Under the pieces are notes generated by a model. It was not told where the DNA came from. It did not search any database and saw only the letters and a list, made by a program, of their open reading frames with translations. From Physcomitrium patens (lineage: Eukaryota; Streptophyta; Bryopsida; Funariales; Funariaceae), in assembly GCF_000002425.4 (NCBI RefSeq), contig NC_037257.1, positions 18,391,001 to 18,455,000 of the forward strand: a DNA stretch of 64,000 nucleotides. The letters run 5' to 3'. The translations under genes were made by a program, and so were the position numbers. Below, one piece after another: positions 20,729 to 64,000 of this stretch (positions within the stretch are counted from its first letter, which is position 1; each line of letters opens with the position of its first letter).

Positions 20729-22661
20729 CTATGAAGAAGGGACGGCTTTGCTGAGCCAAGCGAGGCACATCGCGGCAGTCCACGAGAAGCTGCCACCGCC
20801 TGCTGGTTTGCCGTCAGTGGGGTCATAGTACTCGTAAATGCCAGACCCAAGAAGTTCATAGGTGTCGGATTCGACGCGCTGCGCAAGGGAGTCGAATCCG
20901 TAAGCACGAAGGCCATCGGTGATCATCCAGTTCACGATGGCCCAGATGGGTCCTCTCCAGTAGCGGAGAGCTTCGAAATCGGCTGATTCAGGGTCGTTGC
21001 TAGGGATTCCGTATTTGACGCAACTCAACCACCGTTCCAGGGTGCCAGCGAGTTCCTGGGCTTGTGTAGGAGTAGCAATCCGGGCGAAGAGAGGCAGGAA
21101 ACCGGCAGATGTGCTGGCATTCAACAACTTCCCCGTCAGCTGATCCTTGGACTTGAACATCTTTGCCTCAGGGTCGTAAAGACTGCTAAACGCTGCACGA
21201 GTACTTTCCAGCCATCCATCAATCTCAGGGAGGACGTCCAACTCTCCAAGCAACTCGGCCAGCCATCTGCCACAAACCAAGGGTGAAAAGTGAGCGTCAG
21301 GAAAGCGAACCTCCATGATGGCTGAAATTTCGAACCGAAAGTGGAAGTAGAAAGAATAAAAGATCTTCGAGGATCATTCCTACCTAAGGGAGAGATTGGC
21401 GCGGTAGAGGACGCTGTTAGTGCACAAATCGGTGACACGGAAGGGGGACAAGTAGTAGAGCTGGTTGCAATCGTAGTCCACGGCGCGAAAGCGGTAGACG
21501 AGGGTAAGAAAACGATCGTACTCGGCCTGGCTTGGGCGCATGGAGCTGTTCACATGGGTCAAGTCTGCCCTCACGTATGGTGGAATATCATCGACGGGGA
21601 CGTTGCGGAGCGGCTCGTCCCATGCGGGGCTGTTGTCCATGCCACTCTCCCAAGGGTGCAGAGTGGCTACCAGACCAGTGTTCTCGGGATCGCGAGCGGT
21701 TTTGAACCAACGATGCCATGAAAGAAGTTTGGGGAAGAGCTCTCTCACTTTCGTCAAGGCCAGTTCCTTATTCACGGCTTGCTCGAAAAGATTTCGTACT
21801 GTTATGGCAGCCACAGGTGGTTGGGTGATGCCTGTAGATTTGCGCGGCTTCTCCACGGAGCCCCAAATCTCAGGGCCAGGGAAGTAGGTGGTGGAAGGCT
21901 TGTGGAAAACGATATGGGAAACCATCCCATCGTCCCACTGCGCGGAGAAGAGCTTGGTCATCTCCTCCCATGCGCGTGCTTCGTCAAGCGTGGCCCACCC
22001 CATCGCCACCAACGCGGAGTCCCAATTCCATTGGTACGGGTACAGTCCCTTCGCGGGGATCGTGTAGCCCCCTTGATCATTGTCAATCAAAATTTCGCGC
22101 GAGTCTGACAGCAGAGTTTGCAATTTCTTGTATGCATAACTTTGACATTCATCACTGCATCCAACACCGCAACCCAAAGAAGAAGGGATGAATTAAAAAA
22201 TCTTGTCAGAAATAGTCACTATAAACGCAGACGCAACCATGTCCGAGAAAGACGAGAATTGACGACCTTGGTGGAAAATGCCGATGCAGCTGCATTAACG
22301 GAAAAATTCTGTTTCTGCTTAGGATTGATCATGTTGTTGCAAACATTCAAGAACACATCATCACCCAAAACTGAAGCATGCATTCGACACGAACATCGTC
22401 GATCTCGAAAAAGTTATTGTCCCATTCTCCACCAACTGTTCACGTTCATCCAGTTGTGTGGTGGACTTTACTTGTCAACTCGACCTAGTTTTGACAGGAC
22501 AATTTTATTTCTTGACAGCTGCTGATTATCACTTACGTAAGATCGGCCCTCTTGGCTCCAGGAACCGCCGCTGGAGTCGAGTAGTCCAATGCCCCTCCAC
22601 ATCCAGGGCGTGCCGGTGCCTCAGTGGCCGGTATCGTCGACAACATTGCAACTGGCGCCAT
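20729..22661 (-). CDS. GH63 glycoside hydrolase, probable mannosylglycerate hydrolase (3 exons, 477 aa)
   Basis: Proposed exons on the minus strand are 22661-22537, 22154-21384 and 21266-20729. The introns are 382 and 117 bp, with donors AC|GTAAGT and AG|GTAGGA and acceptors TGCAG|T and GGCAG|A. The phases fit exactly, giving 477 residues, close to known plant mannosylglycerate hydrolases (about 490 from memory). The (alpha/alpha)6 barrel motifs run in order: QWNWDS at about 83, QWDDGMVSHIVFH at 114, HPWESGMDNSPAWD at 208 (candidate acid Asp215), YWRGPIWAIVNW at 401, GIYEYYDP at 442 (candidate base Glu444) and FSWTA at 459. The enzyme would release mannose from mannosylglycerate or a related solute. 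Substrate is inferred from family resemblance. It is the only clearly intact gene in the window. The first 42 residues are weakly supported beyond the splice fit. Confidence 0.88.
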
Positions 22662-32906: not shown

Positions 32907-33373
32907 ATTACATTCACATGCAATATTCTGCATGAGAATATAATTGTTAAGAATGTAATGATTAAGAATTAAGAATGTAATGATTAAGAATTAAGAATGT
33001 AATGATTAAGAATTAAGAATGTAATGATTAAGAATTAAGAATGTAATTATTAAGAATTAAGAATGTAATTATTAAGAATGTAATTACATTCACAATAATT
33101 CTTAATAATTCATAATATTCTTATTTGTTAAGCTATCAGAACATGAAGATTAAGTTTATTAATAATTCTTAAGAATTATTAATATCATATAATAAATCTT
33201 AAGAATAATTACATATTATTAAGAATTATTACAATGTAGTAATAGCTTAAGAATTATTAGTCTTCATGTTCTGAGCTTAATAATTACATTTTTAACATTC
33301 TTAATTCTTAAAAATCACATTCTTAAAATAATATTCATAACAATTACATTCACATGCGATATTCTGCATGAGA
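32907..33373. repeat. Repeat cluster: 22-bp tandem array between 31-bp direct repeats
   Basis: About six copies of a 22-bp unit (AAGAATGTAATGATTAAGAATT and variants) run from 32949 to 33080, the last two carrying a G-to-T variant. A 31-bp sequence, ATTACATTCACATGC followed by R-ATATTCTGCATGAGA, occurs at 32907-32937 and 33343-33373. Another 28-bp sequence occurs directly at 32823-32850 and 33131-33158 and, shorter and inverted, near 33260-33280. The array is palindrome-rich. No spacers or protein genes accompany it. Confidence 0.85.
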
Positions 33374-43594: not shown

Positions 43595-44154
43595 TGTCAC
43601 GGACATAATCATGTAAGCTAGTAATTACATATACAAATAGGTAGAAGTAAGTAAAAGTAGCTAAAAGTAAGTTAATTCTATAGTATTTAATATGTAAGCT
43701 TTTTAGAAGCTTCATAGATGCTGCTTTGACTTCATAGGTGTCTTTAATTGATTTTTTGGATTAGAAACGTGGTCAACAAGTTGGCCATGTGCCACACATG
43801 TTGTTAGCTTGAAGATCAAGCTAAGTATGTGGCCCACACATAGAAAAACTTGCCTTGTAAGTAAAGGCATGTGTCCTATAAAGTCAACACATATTGGAGG
43901 TGCTATAGAATGGTGCCACCTAGCCCTAGTTAGATAGTATATATTGAGAGAAGAGTGAAGGCTTCTTCACTCTTGTCAATTCCTTTCTTGCTTCTAGTTT
44001 GATTTCAAGGGTCTTTAGTTTTCTTGTCTTTTGGTAATAGCCATTCCAGTTTCTCTTTCAATATATATACTTTTTCATATATATTTTGTTACTTCTCTTT
44101 GACTGAAGGCTCACTTGTCTGAATTGTTTTTTCATCGAGTGCTTGTCCTTGAAA
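43595..44154 (+). repeat. 5' LTR of A2
   Basis: 560 bp, TGTCACGG at the start and GAAA at the end where GACA is expected. TATA motif at 43938-43945. Inverted repeat at 43948-43977 with one mismatch. Confidence 0.93.
43969..43979 (+). promoter_or_regulatory. Predicted transcript 5' end, self-primer sequence (A2)
   Basis: ACTCTTGTCAA lies 31 nt downstream of the start of the TATA motif (43938). It is the exact reverse complement of TTGACAAGAGT at 44157-44167, just inside the LTR. Confidence 0.6.
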
Positions 44155-44156
44155 GA

Positions 44157-44167
44157 TTGACAAGAGT
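44157..44167 (+). other. Proposed self-priming primer-binding site (A2)
   Basis: TTGACAAGAGT starts 2 nt after the LTR end. It does not begin with TGG, so it does not match a tRNA 3' end, but it pairs fully with the LTR sequence at 43969-43979. A TATCAGAGC sequence, resembling part of the initiator-tRNA primer site, lies about 20 nt further on. Confidence 0.6.
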
Positions 44168-55648: not shown

Positions 55649-57429
55649 TGGTATTAGAAACTACATTGAGGCATCACTATTATAGCTTGATTCTGCTACA
55701 ACTCAAATATTAAGTATTTTCTTTTTATATGTAATAACAATAAGCAGTGGATCATAAAGAAGTAATGGCTACCAAAGCCTTATAATCTATTGTTGGATTA
55801 TTAGATCAATTTGATGGAAGAAACATCTCTAGGTATTTGAAATATTTTTTTCAAAAGATGGAGCTCAATAAAGTACCAGAAAAGGAATTGATCTTAATAT
55901 TTAAGCTTATAGTTGTACTAGAGTTTTAGGAGTGTATACAAGAGATTATTGAAACTCATGGAGAAAAATAGGAAGATTTTATCCTTCAACTAAAAGAAGA
56001 GTATTCTTTAAAAGATGCTAAAAAGGTAACTAAAAAATCATTCAAGGAATAGATTAATAAATTCAATAAGGGATTGGTTGCAACAAAGTCATTTTAAAAA
56101 TTTGAGAGACATTTTCTTCAATTATCTTGAGTAGAAAAACTTACTCTTAAAAATAACAAGGTGGAGCTATTCTTTCAATTGGCCAACAATAAATTATAGA
56201 AGGAATTGGAATTATTATTGGAAGATATTACAAAAGACAATAGACTCACAACTGACTGGAAGGTGTCTGAAGTAATGGAAATACTTGCTAAAAGAAAATA
56301 TCAGGAGAATAAGATTGTAGAAAAATAAGAAACTAGGCCTCTATCAATCATAATATCTCATAGGCAACTACCAGAAACTATTATACCAATATCTATTGCT
56401 CCAATTCCTATGTCTATAGTTATATCACAAAAAGATGCAATTGGGGAGTTGGTGAAAAGAATGAAAGACTTACAAATCAAATTAGAAAAGCTAGAAGAAA
56501 AAGAAAGAAATTTTGAGAACAAATATGTATCAAAGCTAGGATATATACAAAGATGTATTTGGTGTAATAGTATGGAGAATCTTCACAAGGAATGTGGAGA
56601 TTTTGTTGATACTTTGTAATAGGGAGTAATTTTATGGAAGGATGGAAAGATCGCCTTACAAGATATAAGTGAGTTCCTTAAAACTAACTTTGGAAGGAGA
56701 GGAATGAAGAAGGTTTTGGATGAATATTTATCTTAGCAATCTATAGCATTGGGAGAGGCTATCACCAATGGCATAAAGATAGGAAGAGAGAAGCAAGATA
56801 TCTTTGATAAGTATGTAGAGGCAAAAAATTTATGGAATCATGCTATGACCAATATGGATAAAGGAAAAAAAAACAAGAGAAGAATTGCTTAAGATAGCTA
56901 CAGTAATCAAGAATGCTACAAGGTGGGATGATCTTATTGATGTCATATCCATACATGTTTATTTGACAAAATTCCAACATGAAGCTTTGGTAGAATTAAA
57001 AAAGGATAGAAATATAATAGATGAAAACCTTGAGGAGCCAAATAACAAAAGAAGTTCTCATAGGAATGAAAAAGAAAATCAAAATAAGAAGACACTTATA
57101 CTACAAGGTAGTAGACTATTAAAAATTGGACCATCAACATCACACCCTAGGAATGTACCACTGCAAAAGAAAAAATAGAAGCTAATAAAAATAGAGAAAA
57201 GAATAAGCTTGTTGCTTACACATTACAATTAGACATTGAAGCAACTACAAATTTAAAAGGGATGCTAAAAAAAACGGTATTGAATGCCAAAATGGAGATT
57301 ACTTTGCAAAAAATTTTAGGCATTACAAAGAAAAATTTTCATGATATCATTATTGACATTATTAAATAAAAAAATATAAATAAATTGATAGGAGGATCTA
57401 CAATGTCTAATGCCTTGGATATAATATTG
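55649..57429 (+). mobile_element. Family F Gypsy element, 5' part (interrupted by A3)
   Basis: TGGTATTAGAAA at 55649-55660 resembles the initiator-tRNA primer site. It is followed by gag from about 55765 and the start of the protease region. A3 is inserted at 57430, and TATTG at 57425-57429 is the target copy. Reading resumes at 63802. Many stops and frameshifts show that the host element was already dead or has decayed since. Confidence 0.8.
55765..57424 (+). pseudogene. Gag and start of protease region (family F)
   Basis: ATG at 55765 starts MATKAL followed by a stop, then GLLDQFDGRNISRYL, a gag start typical of another Gypsy lineage. A coiled-coil stretch (KRMKDLQIKLEKLEEKE) precedes a knuckle at about 56555-56600 reading CIWCNSMENLHKEC, where the expected His position is Asn. 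A second half (56885-57178) is frame-shifted. It ends with NALDIIL at the A3 insertion. The frames contain at least eight stops. Confidence 0.75.
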
Positions 57430-57981
57430 TGTCACGGCCATAATCATGTAAGCTAATAATTACATATAGAAATAGGTAGAAGTAAGTAAAAATAGATAAA
57501 AGTAAGTTAATTCTATAATATTTAATATAAAAGTTTCCTAGAAACTTCCTAGACGCTGCTTTGACTTCATAGGTATCTTTAATTGACTTTTTGGATTAGA
57601 AACGTGGTCAACAAGTTGGCCATGTGCCACACATGTTGTTAGCTTGAAGATCAAGCTAACTATGTGGCCCACACGTAGAAAAACTTGCCTTGTAAGTCAA
57701 GGCATGTGTCCTACAAAGTCAACACATATTAAAGGTCCTATAGAACGTCGCCACGTAGCCCCTAGTTAGATAATATATATAGAGACAAGAGTGAAGGCTT
57801 CTTCACTCTTGTCAACTCCTTTCTTGCTTCTAGTCCAGGTTCAAGAGTCTTTAGTTTCTTGTCTTGTAGCAATAGCCATTCCAGTTTCCTTTTAATATAC
57901 CTACTTGTTTATATTTTGACTTATTATATCGAGATAGCCTTTTGGTGTATATTTTCCCTCATCGAGTCTTTGTCCTTGACA
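57430..57981 (+). repeat. 5' LTR of A3
   Basis: 552 bp, TGTCACGG to TTGACA. TATA box at 57774-57783 and a perfect 13-bp inverted repeat with GCTT loop at 57784-57813. Confidence 0.95.
57774..57815 (+). promoter_or_regulatory. LTR core promoter: TATA box, palindrome and self-primer sequence (A3)
   Basis: TATATATAGA at 57774-57783 is followed directly by GACAAGAGTGAAG-GCTT-CTTCACTCTTGTC (57784-57813), a perfect 13-bp dyad. ACTCTTGTCAA (57805-57815) begins 31 nt after the start of the TATA box, where plant transcription usually starts. It is complementary to the sequence just inside the LTR. The start site itself is inferred. Confidence 0.65.
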
Positions 57982-57983
57982 GA

Positions 57984-57994
57984 TTGACAAGAGT
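57984..57994 (+). other. Proposed self-priming primer-binding site (A3)
   Basis: TTGACAAGAGT starts 2 nt after the 5' LTR. It pairs over all 11 nt with ACTCTTGTCAA at 57805-57815. In the Tf1/sushi group, 11 nt of the mRNA 5' end fold back and prime reverse transcription in this way. No TGG start of a tRNA-type primer site is found at the LTR edge. A TATCAGAGC motif at 58005-58013 is the only tRNA-like alternative, 23 nt from the LTR. Confidence 0.65.
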
Positions 57995-58193
57995 ACACTT
58001 ACAATATCAGAGCTTTATTTTTTCTTGAGTAAGAGTGGATTACCCCTTTCTCTTGACAAGACATAAGCGTATTAGAAGTTTGTGGATTACCCACTTCTAA
58101 ACTGATATTGTTCTTAGTATCTTCTTTGTTATCAAGTCTTTCTTTTCTTTTGTCTTGAGCAATATCAAACAAATTTTTCTTCTTAGTGTCATT

Positions 58194-59198
58194 ATGGCAG
58201 AGCTTGTTGAAATGAAGAGTGCAATGGCACAAATGCAAGAGCAAATGAGGGAGTTAATGCTTGCGATGCATCAACTCAATTCACTAATACAGGAAAGAAC
58301 AAGAATAGCAGAAAGTGGAGATATAGAGATGATCGGAGCTGCTTCAACATCTACAACAAATCACGTTCCTTCTCCAATTATACAACACCCTATAAGCACT
58401 AGAGAACCAAGAATTGCATTACCTGAGAAATTTGATGGTACGAGATCAAAGTTTCGAGGATTCATCAATCAAGTACAATTGGCAATTGAACTTCAACCGC
58501 AAAGCTATCCAACTCCAGGATCACAAGTCAGGTTTATTGGCACTCTACTTTCTGGTTCTGCATTATCGTGGTTTTCGTCTTTTCTTGAACAACGAAATCC
58601 AATATTGGACAATTTGGAAGCTTTTTTGGCGGAGTTTCGATCTATGTATGGTGAACACGATGCAACTCGTGTTGCAACAAATAAGATCCGAATTTTGCGA
58701 CAAGGAAATCGCTCAGTAACAGTATATGCTTCACAATTTTGACAACTTGCAATTGACATCAAGTGGGATGATGCTGCACTCATCAGTCAATTTCTTTATG
58801 GATTGTAATACGAAGTAAAGAAATTGATACTCAATTTACCTGATCCTCAAACTTTGAGTCAAACAATCGATTTTGCGGTAAAATGTGATAATCGACTTTT
58901 CGAATTTCGATCCGAGAATCATTCACGAGAACCTCAACATTATTACTCAATGGCAACATCAACATCTTTGCCAAACGTACATTCAGAAGTAGAAGACATG
59001 CAAATTGACGCGGTACGTTTTAAACTCCTAACTGAGCAAGAAAAGATTCGTCGTCGTCGAGAAGGATTATGTTTATATTGCGGAGAACCTAAGCACACTG
59101 CTCAATAATGTCCAAAGAAACGACGCAACTATAAAATGAGGGGTACGACGGTCAAAGAAGACAACATGTCGGAAAACGGATTCGTCCAGCTACAATAG
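58194..59198 (+). pseudogene. Gag (A3)
   Basis: ATG at 58194 opens a 334-codon frame closed by TAG at 59196-59198. The N-terminus (MKSAMAQMQEQMRELMLAMHQ) looks like a coiled coil. The capsid shows KFDGTRSKFRGFINQVQLAI and SALSWFSSFLEQ. A CX2CX4HX4C zinc knuckle (CLYCGEPKHTAQ, then C after a stop) is near the end, followed by a basic patch. Stops are TGA 58740-58742 (CGA in A2), TAA 58806-58808 (CAA in A2) and TAA 59106-59108 inside the knuckle. Gag forms the particle shell. Confidence 0.9.
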
Positions 59199-62100
59199 GG
59201 ACCTTGCAGCTGGAACCTTGTACAATTCCTAATGAAGGTCCTATCCTCTCCTCAGAACCCTCTCCTTGTTTTATAATAGACTTATATTTAGGACCTAAGA
59301 ATTACAAAGCCTCTGCTTTATTAGATTCGGGAGCCTCAGCATGTTTTTTAGATGAACAATTTGTTAAAAGTCGTAAAATATCCTTTGTATAGAAACCTAA
59401 ACCAGTACATGTAGAAGTCATAGATGGTCGTCCCTTGTCTTCTGGAGATGTCACTCATGAAACTCATCCTATAAAAGTAACAATAGACGGTCATGATAGC
59501 TACATAGCTTTTAACATAATTAAATCCCCGTCCAATCCAGTTATTTTAGGTTTATCCTGGCTAGAAAAATATAACCCTCAAATAGATTGGAATTTGCCTA
59601 AACTTGACTTTTCTCAAAGCGTTATTAATAGTTCTACCAACCAAGTAAAAAATTATAAGTCTAGTATAGTAAAACTCGTACTGATAGGTGCAAAAGCATT
59701 TATACACGCAGCAAAAGAAGGATCAACTTTTGCTATTTATGCTGCACCTATTTTTGAAAATGTAAAGACTTCGATTGGCATTCCAAGTCAATATCAGGAG
59801 TATCAAGACGTTTTTGAGAAAAAAAATGCAGATATTCTTCTTGAGCATCGCCCATATGATTGTTCAATCGACCTCAAGGAAGGAACTTAGCCACCATTTG
59901 GACCAATTTACAGTTTTTCGCAAGATGAGATGGCTGAACTCGAGACATATATTGACGAGAATTTAGCGAAGAATTTCATATGCCATTCAAAATCTCCAGC
60001 AGGAGCTCCAATTCTATTCGTAAAGAAAAAAGATGGATCTTTACGAATGTGTGTTGATTATCGAGGACTCAATAAGATCACAATCAGGAACAGGTATCCA
60101 TTACCTTTGATATCAAGACTCCTTGACCAGTTGAATCAAGCTAAGATCTATACAAAAATAGATCTAAGAGGAGCATATAATCTAGTACGGATCAAAGAAG
60201 GAGATGAATGGAAGACTGTGTTTCGAACCAGGTATGGACATTTCGAATATAATGTCATGCCCTTTGGACTCATGAATGCACCAGCTGCTTTTCAACATCT
60301 CATGAATGATGTATTTCGTGAATTCTTAGACAATTTTGTCGTCTGCTACCTAGACGATATCCTGATTTATTCTAAGAATGTTGAAGAACATGAAATACAT
60401 GTTCGTCAAGTATTACAAAAACTTAGAGATGCAGGATTGTACGCCAAGATGGAAAAGTGTGTATTTCACACTACTCAAGTTGATTTTTTAAGATACATCA
60501 TTTCAAATGATGGTCTCATGATGGATTCTAAGAAAGTCCAAACAATCATGGATTGGAAGATTCCAAGGACAGTAAGAGATGTCCAATGTTTCTTGGGATT
60601 TGCCAATTACTATCAGATCTTCATCAAAGATTTCTCACGAGTTGCAGCTCCACTTACACGCTTGACTAGTAAAGATAAATTCCAATGGAATCAAGAAGCG
60701 GAAGCAGCATTTGAAGCCTTGAAGACATCGTTTGTCTCTGCACCAGTCTTATATTGTGTTGATTTTTCCAAGGCATTTTTTATGGAAACAGATGCATAAG
60801 ATTTTGCCTTGGGTGCAGTTTTATCAAAAATGGGAACAGATGACAAACTTCATCCGATAGCTTTTCATTCAAGAAAATTCTCAGCAACCGATATCAATTA
60901 TGAGATCCACGATAAAGAACTTCTTGCGATCGTGGATTCCTTTCAAGAATGGCGTCATTATCTAGAAGGCGCTTCTATTCCAGTCACTGTGTATACAGAT
61001 CACAAGAACCTCGAGTATTTCATGTCAGCTCGCGTGTTGAATCGTCGTCAAGCTCGTTGGAGTATGTCTTTGTCAAGATTCGAGTTCATTATCACTTATC
61101 GGCCAGGAAAACAACAAGGTTTGTCTGATGCACTATTTAGACGTTCTTATTTTGCACCAAAAGAAGGAGATGCAGCTTTTGAGCAACAAAGAACGGTCCT
61201 CTTGAAACCGGAGCAATTTCATCTCCGAGCAATGAAATCAACATTGACTGTTGATTCAACTTTACTCAAGCAAATCCAGTCCAGTATGTCCTCAGACCCT
61301 CTTGTTCATGATATCGAGAATAATTCTTTCAAGTCTCATGATCCTTCTAAGTTCGAGTTCAAGAATAATCTATTATATTTTGAAGGACGCCTATATGTTC
61401 CAGAAGGAGAAGCACGTTTACGTGTTCTTCAAGCACGTCATGATTTTCCAGCAACAGGGCACTTTGGATATAATAAGACTTTGGAACTCATATCAAGAGA
61501 TTTTTGGTGGCCACAAATGTGGAAGTCAGTCAAAGACTTTGTACAATCATGTGATATTTGTTCAAGATCAAAAATTCCTCGTCATCGACCTTACGGACTT
61601 CTTCAGCCATTACCTATACCAGAACAACCATGGTCTTCTGTTTCTATGGATTTCATCACAGATCTTCTAAGCTCAAGATCTTATGATTCTATATTTGTGA
61701 TAGTAGATCGTTTCACCAAAATGGCACATTTTGTGCCATGTACAAAATCTATCACAGGTGAAGAAACAGCTAAGCTTTTCATTGATAATATCTATCGCTA
61801 TCATGGATTACCTAAAGATATCATATCAGATAGGGGAACTCAATTTGTGTCAAGATTTTGGAGGACCCTTTTCAAGATTTTAAAAGTGGACATAAAGCTA
61901 TCTTCGGCTTTCCATCCTCAAATTGATGGACAAACAGAGCGCGTAAACCAAGTCTTGGAGCAATATTTAAGGTGTACTATCAACTACCAACAAGATGATT
62001 GGACAACCCTTCTGCCATTGGCAGAGTTTGCTTATAATAATACGGTACATTCTTCCACGCAACAACACCTTTCTTTGCCAATTATGGCTATCATCCACGA

Positions 62101-62691
62101 CTTGATACTTTTGATTTTTCAAAAGTTGATAATCCTGCAGCAGAAGATATGGCAAATCGGTTGTCAAAGTTACATGCAATAATGAAGACGCAATTGAAGG
62201 AAGCTCAAGAACAACAAAAGATAAACGCAGATCTATATCGTAAGGAGCAACCACAAATCAACGTGGGTGATAAGGTATGGCTACTTCGTTGCAATATCAA
62301 GACTACTCGACCTTGTGACAAGTTGGACTATCGTAGGCTTGGCCCCTTTTCTGTTTCTAAACAGATCAACCCAATTGCATATCGGTTACATCTACTGGTG
62401 TCAATGAAGATCCATCCTGTATTCCACGTGTCTCTTCTTGAATCATATAAGACAGTGGATATACAAGGAAGAAGACAAATGCCACCGCCTCCTATAGAAG
62501 TAGATAATAATGAAGAATTTGAGATGGAAGAGATATTAGACTCAAGGCGGCGCCGAAATAAGCTGGAATATCTTGTTCATTGGCGCGGATATGATATTAG
62601 TGAATGCACATGGGAGCCATCCAGGAATCTAGCAAATGCATCAGCTAAAGTCAAAGTTTTTCATCAACGACATCCATCAAAACCAAGATGA
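59135..62691 (+). pseudogene. Pol: protease, RT, RNase H, integrase, chromodomain (A3)
   Basis: The frame is -1 to gag and overlaps its end by 64 nt. Domains in order are protease (LLDSGASACFLD, about 59320), reverse transcriptase (VKKKDGSLRMCVDYRGLNKIT, VMPFGLMNAPAAFQ, YLDDILIYS), RNase H (ETDA, EIHDKELLAIV, YTDHKNLEY), integrase zinc finger (H-x-H then CDIC), catalytic Asp in SMDFITDL and ISDRGTQFVSRFW, Glu in TERVNQVLEQYL, then the linker (NVGDKVWLL) and chromodomain (LEYLVHWRGYD, CTWEP). Stops at 59390, 59888 and 60797 and a 1-nt shift near 62065 break it. Apart from these, catalytic residues are intact, which makes it the best reference for the family here. Confidence 0.93.
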
Positions 62692-63249: not shown

Positions 63250-63801
63250 TGTCACGGCCATAATCATGTAAGCTAATAATTACATATAGAAATAGGTAGA
63301 AGTAAGTAAAAATAGATAAAAGTAAGTTAATTCTATAATATTTAATATAGAAGTTTCCTAGAAACTTCCTAGACGCTACTTTGACTTCATAGGTGTCTTT
63401 AATTGACTTTTTGGATTAGAAACGTGGTCAACAAGTTGGCCATGTGCCACACATGTTGTTAGCTTGAAGATCAAGCTAACTATGTGGCCCACACGTAGAA
63501 AAACTTGCCTTGTAAGTCAAGGCATGTGTCCTACAAAGTCAACACATATTAAAGGTCCTATAGAACGTCGCCACGTAGCCCCTAGTTAGATAATATATAT
63601 AGAGACAAGAGTGAAGGCTTCTTCACTCTTGTCAACTCCTTTCTTGCTTCTAGTCCAGGTTCAAGAGTCTTTAGTTTCTTGTCTTGTAGCAATAGCCATT
63701 CCAGTTTCCTTTTAATATACCTACTTGTTTATATTTTGACTTATTATATCGAGATAGCCTTTTGGTGTATATTTTCCCTCATCGAGTCTTTGTCCTTGAC
63801 A
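63250..63801 (+). repeat. 3' LTR of A3
   Basis: 552 bp with three differences from the 5' LTR (near positions 102, 129 and 145 of the LTR, all A/G). The TATA box and inverted repeat (63604-63633) are identical to those of the 5' LTR. Confidence 0.95.
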
Positions 63802-64000
63802 TATTGATGGAACAAGAAGAAGTTGAATTGGCTGAATGTTGCACAAATAAAAAGGTTCAATTTTCTTTGGATGAAGACAAGATTGATGATAAGAGTCCTA
63901 GTAACTATACTAAGGATCATTGGACCAGAGCCACTACAAAAATTCTAATAAAGATGAGAGTCTTGATAGATCTAGTAATTGCTTTCATTCACCATGGATC
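63802..64000 (+). pseudogene. Protease region of family F, continued
   Basis: After the second TATTG target copy the frame continues from NALDIIL into MEQEEVELAECC, SNYTKDHWTRATTKIL and VLIDLVIAFIHHGS. The last part corresponds to the start of a retroviral-type protease, where D-H/S-G-S is expected. Here HHGS replaces it, so the catalytic Asp is missing. The window ends here. Confidence 0.72.

Follow-up and report, generated by a model that had tools for sequence, protein, structure and literature searches.

The window analysed here, a stretch of 64,000 nt of the Physcomitrium patens genome, contains two copies, A3 and A2, of a chromodomain LTR retrotransposon family that is referred to as family A (Table 1). 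The LTRs of A3 share 99% identity over 558 aligned nt, and the element is flanked by the target duplication TATTG (57425-57429 and 63802-63806). The Pfam matches of A3 are those of a Ty3/gypsy element, with the reverse transcriptase (RT) before the integrase and a C-terminal chromodomain; the coding region of this copy itself is broken into several frames. Elsewhere in the window, a frame on the reverse strand (21383-22192) matches mannosylglycerate hydrolase, with 92% identity over 97% to a P. patens protein, and a tandem array with a 22-nt AT-rich unit is located at 32925-33100.

For the placement of family A among related elements, an RT tree of 28 rows was built by a quick method with few named references. 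The RT of A3 groups with elements of Cryptococcus, Rhizoctonia and vertebrates, apart from three Tanacetum rows that were assumed to be chromoviruses. The SH-aLRT value was 88 for the set without Tanacetum and 99 for the nearest set of A3. The Cryptococcus RTs P0031 and P0043 are 61-64% identical to that of A3.

Table 1. Features of the family A copies A3 and A2 in the window (+, forward strand)
Feature	Position	Strand	Basis or remark
5' LTR of A3 (TGTCACGG...TTGACA)	57430-57981	+	LTR comparison
TATA box of A3 (TATATATA)	57774-57781	+	31 nt before predicted RNA start
Palindrome, U3 arm	57784-57796	+	pairs with 57801-57813
Palindrome, R-side arm, overlapping the self-primer	57801-57813	+	pairs with 57784-57796
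Putative self-primer of A3, predicted first 11 nt of the RNA (ACTCTTGTCAA)	57805-57815	+	
Putative primer binding site (PBS) of A3 (TTGACAAGAGT)	57984-57994	+	2 nt after 5' LTR
Predicted leader RNA structure downstream of the PBS	58001-58111	+	closing stem 58001-58010 with 58102-58111, two inner hairpins
Gag fragment of A3 (DUF4939, Retrotrans_gag)	58101-58742	+	Pfam
Reverse transcriptase (RVT_1) and start of RNase H, A3	59891-60799	+	Pfam
RNase H, integrase zinc finger and core, A3	60800-62182	+	Pfam
Integrase C-terminus with SH3_Tf2-1 and chromodomain, A3	62041-62691	+	Pfam
3' LTR of A3	63250-63801	+	LTR comparison
Putative self-primer of copy A2	43969-43979	+	complementarity
Putative primer binding site of copy A2	44157-44167	+	complementarity

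The 11-nt pairing and its maintenance in family A

The sequence TTGACAAGAGT of A3 is the exact reverse complement of ACTCTTGTCAA in the 5' LTR. The original prediction had described this 11-nt complement for both copies, and both pairs were found again, the pair of A2 being identical in sequence and lengthened to 12 nt. The spacing of 31 nt that had been given from the start of the TATA box to the primer was likewise confirmed. Only the position of TTGACAAGAGT, described at the time as inside the 5' LTR, has to be corrected to 2 nt downstream of it. In a shuffle test with 20000 dinucleotide-shuffled LTRs, a perfect complement, at any place in the LTR, to an 11-mer beginning 0-5 nt downstream of the LTR was obtained in 19 of 20000 cases for A3 and in 32 of 20000 for A2, the position 31 nt after the TATA box not being demanded. 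Minimum-energy folds calculated from the predicted RNA start pair all 11 nt in A3 and A2.

Further copies were collected by an RT search of the 470-Mb host assembly, by which 130 of 43715 first-look candidates were scored; many of their frames comprise 1185 or 1187 residues. The leaders of 20 long-frame copies, with pol frames of these two lengths, were hand-picked from the scored list as the family A sample. Both 11-nt sites are intact in all 20 of them, among which are three copies that have TATGAGAGC downstream and a group whose U3 arm is different. Over 22 rows (the 20 long-frame copies, A3 and A2), 0 of 11 columns are variable in the primer and 0 of 11 in the PBS, against 74 of the 160 columns between them. 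It had been proposed to check the family A copies for paired changes: the pairing was kept in 20 of 20 long-frame copies, but the two sites are invariant among them, so that this set holds no covariation. Folded from the predicted start, 19 of the 20 leaders pair all 11 nt in the minimum-energy structure; the best fold of the remaining one is without the helix, and its mean pair probability is still 0.79. The distance from the TATA box to the primer amounts to 31 nt in all 23 family A rows.

Eight leaders, six A-like and two C-like (for family C see below), were obtained from a 200-kb sample of the assembly, from which 3' LTRs and fragments were left out because they are without a PBS. Exact pairing was found in two of the eight leaders. 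The six A-like ones comprise these two, one leader with a single G-U pair and three with 10 standard pairs. Read by eye, R195k, an old copy near 195 kb in the sample, is paired at 10 of 11 positions, and the C-like leaders at 10 of 11 (143 kb) and 8 of 11 (199 kb).

Likeness to this old copy, and not the reading frame, was used to choose the rows of a decayed third group with sites similar to those of family A, referred to as group E, for which 20 of 40 listed places were sampled. All 11 nt are paired in 5 of these 20 rows, or in 9 of 20 if G-U pairs are counted, with one row that was misplaced through an indel (L113) taken as a miss. The TATA box lies 31 nt before the primer in 20 of 20. Primer position 7 varies in group E without covariation, 7996 of 10000 shuffles doing as well. 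An extra two-sided change at this position, hinted at by the copy at about 195 kb, was therefore ruled out as the group E rows show decay only. The pattern of this group looks like the decay of dead copies and gives no added support for the pairing.

Two-sided changes in family C and in a related contig

Family C is a second family beside family A, with an RT that is 68% identical. The search for its members yielded 130 scored copies from 41600 candidates, and the 20 copies with the longest stop-free frames were used as the sample. One family C element, on the reverse strand of G000:C1 at approximately 12127849-12143700, has a 3' LTR that is split by a nested insertion, the 1336-nt LTRs of which are 99% identical.

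By a script that takes the best complement of the PBS as the primer, the family C primer AGTCTCGACAA and site TTGTCGAGACT were found to be paired at 11 of 11 positions in 18 of the 20 copies; the other two (L067 and L076) have one mismatch each. Located by the upstream context alone, the primer lies 32 nt downstream of the TATA box in all 20 copies. Variable columns over the 20 rows number 1 of 11 in the primer, 1 of 11 in the PBS and 44 of 119 between them. Families A and C differ at 3 of the 11 positions, and all three are altered in primer and PBS alike, the other eight being the same in both families: from A to C, the C-G pair at position 2 is replaced by G-C, the U-A pair at position 6 by C-G and the U-A pair at position 8 by A-U, changes that are not unique to the PBS since the U3 arm of the palindrome listed in Table 1 can pair with the primer as well. 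According to a hand calculation, the odds that 3+3 random changes agree in place and letter are 1 in 165 x 27.

The same primer and PBS as in family C, paired exactly, are present in contig L053 from a non-host source, whose RT is 75% identical to that of A3. Here the site is situated 2 nt after the LTR end, and the distance from the TATA box to the primer is 32 nt. A blind scan of the 2155 nt before the RT for complements of at least 10 nt, 80-700 nt apart, returned this place alone. As family C and L053 share the pair sequence, they are not independent of each other, and the two-sided evidence represents one step, family A versus family C and L053.

Positions 1-3847 of L053, a contig recorded under an uncultured cyanobacterium, hold a chromovirus near family C. 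Five further contigs with matches to gypsy RTs (L054-L058) are recorded under bacteria (bins and two strains) and for this reason look like eukaryote contamination, as does L053. When the blind scan was applied to these five, L054, L055 and L058 were without any 10-nt pair, L056 showed a single pair with a spacing of 586 nt, and L057 showed two, with spacings of 586 and 639 nt. No such pair was identified as a PBS in these contigs with unplaced LTR ends. Scans of viral contigs with the RT revealed no relatives.

Priming of reverse transcription, the palindrome and the leader

Self-priming is the best explanation for family A, and with high probability this family is a chromovirus of the Tf1/sushi/Tcn1 branch that acts in this manner. 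The reading of the original prediction is supported by the upkeep of the pairing in 20 of 20 long-frame copies, by the remaking of both sides in family C and L053, by the spacing of 31 or 32 nt and by the grouping of the RT. From these observations we infer the following order of events. The RNA of A3 most likely begins at 57805, a start that the TATA distance of 31-32 nt would fit. Its first 11 nt would fold back onto the site 2 nt past the 5' LTR, where by analogy with Tf1 the RNase H of the element would cut after base 11. The freed 3' end would then prime minus-strand DNA through the 2-nt spacer into U5.

Pairing of the RNA 5' end with the region after the LTR might instead serve RNA cyclisation, packaging or translation control, and each of these functions predicts the same pairing, the same upkeep and the same folds. 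However, at 2 nt from the end of the LTR the site is where a PBS would be expected, no other PBS was seen, and self-priming has been reported or proposed for relatives in this branch; we regard such a function in place of priming as improbable.

Priming by a tRNA or a tRNA half at or near the site, with the match to the RNA start being secondary, was considered as well. Its starting point is CAATATCAGAGC, about 20 nt downstream, which resembles the initiator-Met site of plants, TGGTATCAGAGC. Downstream of the PBS, TATCAGAGC is present in A3 and in the majority of the 20 family C rows. Tekay, CRM, Reina and Galadriel, the tRNA-primed plant chromoviruses, have a PBS that adjoins the LTR, starts with TGG and is complementary to a tRNA 3' end, whereas A3, A2 and family C are without such an LTR-adjoining TGG site. 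The TGG needed for the CCA of a tRNA 3' end is absent from the 39 nt after the A3 LTR and, in the rows of family C, from the 24 nt that follow the PBS. Moreover, a leader stem is predicted in which AATATCAG forms one strand and CTGATATT the closing one, and TATGAGAGC is found in 3 of the 20 family A copies. L053 has ATATTGG with CCAATAT in place of AATATCAG and CTGATATT, the letters of the closing stem thus differing between family A and L053 with the pairing still predicted. Three of the 11 nt distinguish the site of family A from that of family C, and each site fits the RNA start predicted for its own family. On these sequence comparisons, a tRNA primer at or near the site is considered very unlikely.

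The leader fold, consisting of the closing stem and two hairpins, is predicted in A3, A2, C75, C80 and L053, and C61 folds otherwise. Both inner hairpins of A3 hold a GGATTACCC motif. The predicted stem would account for TATCAGAGC; a relict of an initiator-Met tRNA site was rejected as the origin of this sequence, which is a predicted leader-stem strand and, in L053, is altered together with its partner.

Across the predicted RNA start, a palindrome of 13 pairs with a 4-nt loop was identified, and A2, family C, group E and L053 have it at the corresponding position. Standard pairs at all 13 positions are shown by 22 of the 23 rows of family A, 13 of the 20 of family C, 5 of the 20 of group E, and L053. 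The U3 arm carries the three two-sided differences between families A and C that were found in the PBS, plus one change from U-A to U-G, so that U3 arm, primer and PBS are all altered together between the two families. The standard pairs in these rows would also be expected if the RNA started upstream of the U3 arm, with the 13-bp hairpin at its 5' end and the PBS match as an alternative fold. Against this, the U3 arm begins just 10 nt after the start of the TATA box, which is too close for a usual transcription start, and the primer begins 31 or 32 nt after the TATA box in the measured rows; an upstream start therefore has little probability. Finally, chance, or shared old sequence without function, can be set aside almost completely, as family C differs in sequence with all three differences two-sided, even though a few of the shuffled A3 LTRs gave an 11-nt match.

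Under self-priming with the RNA start at the primer, U3 would be contained only in the 3' end of the RNA, and hairpin formation would be confined to that end. The palindrome may thus make the self-primer a two-state element, free at the 5' end to bind the PBS and locked in the 13-bp hairpin at the 3' end. Priming would then proceed only from the RNA's own 5' end, and R would be open from base 12 for strand transfer. We put this forward as a tentative and rather doubtful proposal.

Relation to known and proposed self-primed elements

The original prediction had named no earlier description of self-priming for a plant chromovirus as known. This does not hold, since the available text of PMC6317226 (REXdb, Neumann et al. 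2019) describes most Tcn1 elements of mosses and club-mosses as having no tRNA sites and predicts self-priming for them, and for no other plant chromovirus group. Family A resembles this Tcn1 clade, as it appears there, in its non-seed plant host, its nature as a chromodomain gypsy element and an LTR complement of 10 nt or more that begins 0-5 nt downstream of the LTR. A stretch defined in this way was found in A3, A2, the long-frame A copies, family C and L053. The prediction of PMC6317226 was made at the level of the clade and, in the text available, without a covariation test. Self-primed elements of this sort are already known, and it is the covariation evidence and the palindrome that are added here. 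The former lends support to self-priming of reverse transcription in a land plant. The open-licence literature on plants, mosses and P. patens, taken without supplementary files and as far as accessible, yielded no test of self-priming in moss.

Among fungal elements, self-priming has been proposed for Tcn1 of Cryptococcus neoformans in the portion of PMC7175516 at hand; its host is a fungus, as opposed to the moss host of family A. Tj1 is likewise treated as self-primed in the accessible part of PMC4600332. The plant Tcn1-like element SM-Tcn1 of Selaginella has a chromodomain, as does family A, and the sections available of PMC2864245 (Novikova et al. 2010) report neither priming mechanism for it. 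The present results bear on this point.

Family A is very likely RLG1, as suggested by host, domains and copy number. RLG1 is described in the available part of PMC7466625 as the most abundant transposable element of P. patens, a chromodomain gypsy family of 5092 complete elements with expression in protonema. A parallel to the proposed priming is offered by Tf1 and Tf2 of Schizosaccharomyces pombe, with which family A shares the complementarity of the predicted first 11 nt of the RNA to the PBS and, in A3, the SH3_Tf2-1 match. In Tf1, bases 1-11 of the RNA anneal to the PBS, and the RNase H cleavage falls between bases 11 and 12 (PMC7175516, text available in part). Self-priming of Tf1 has, according to the same text and PMC4600332, been shown by experiment, whereas family A is known from its sequence alone. 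With the abundant family RLG1 being reported as transcribed in its moss host, the mechanism of fission yeast becomes testable in plants.
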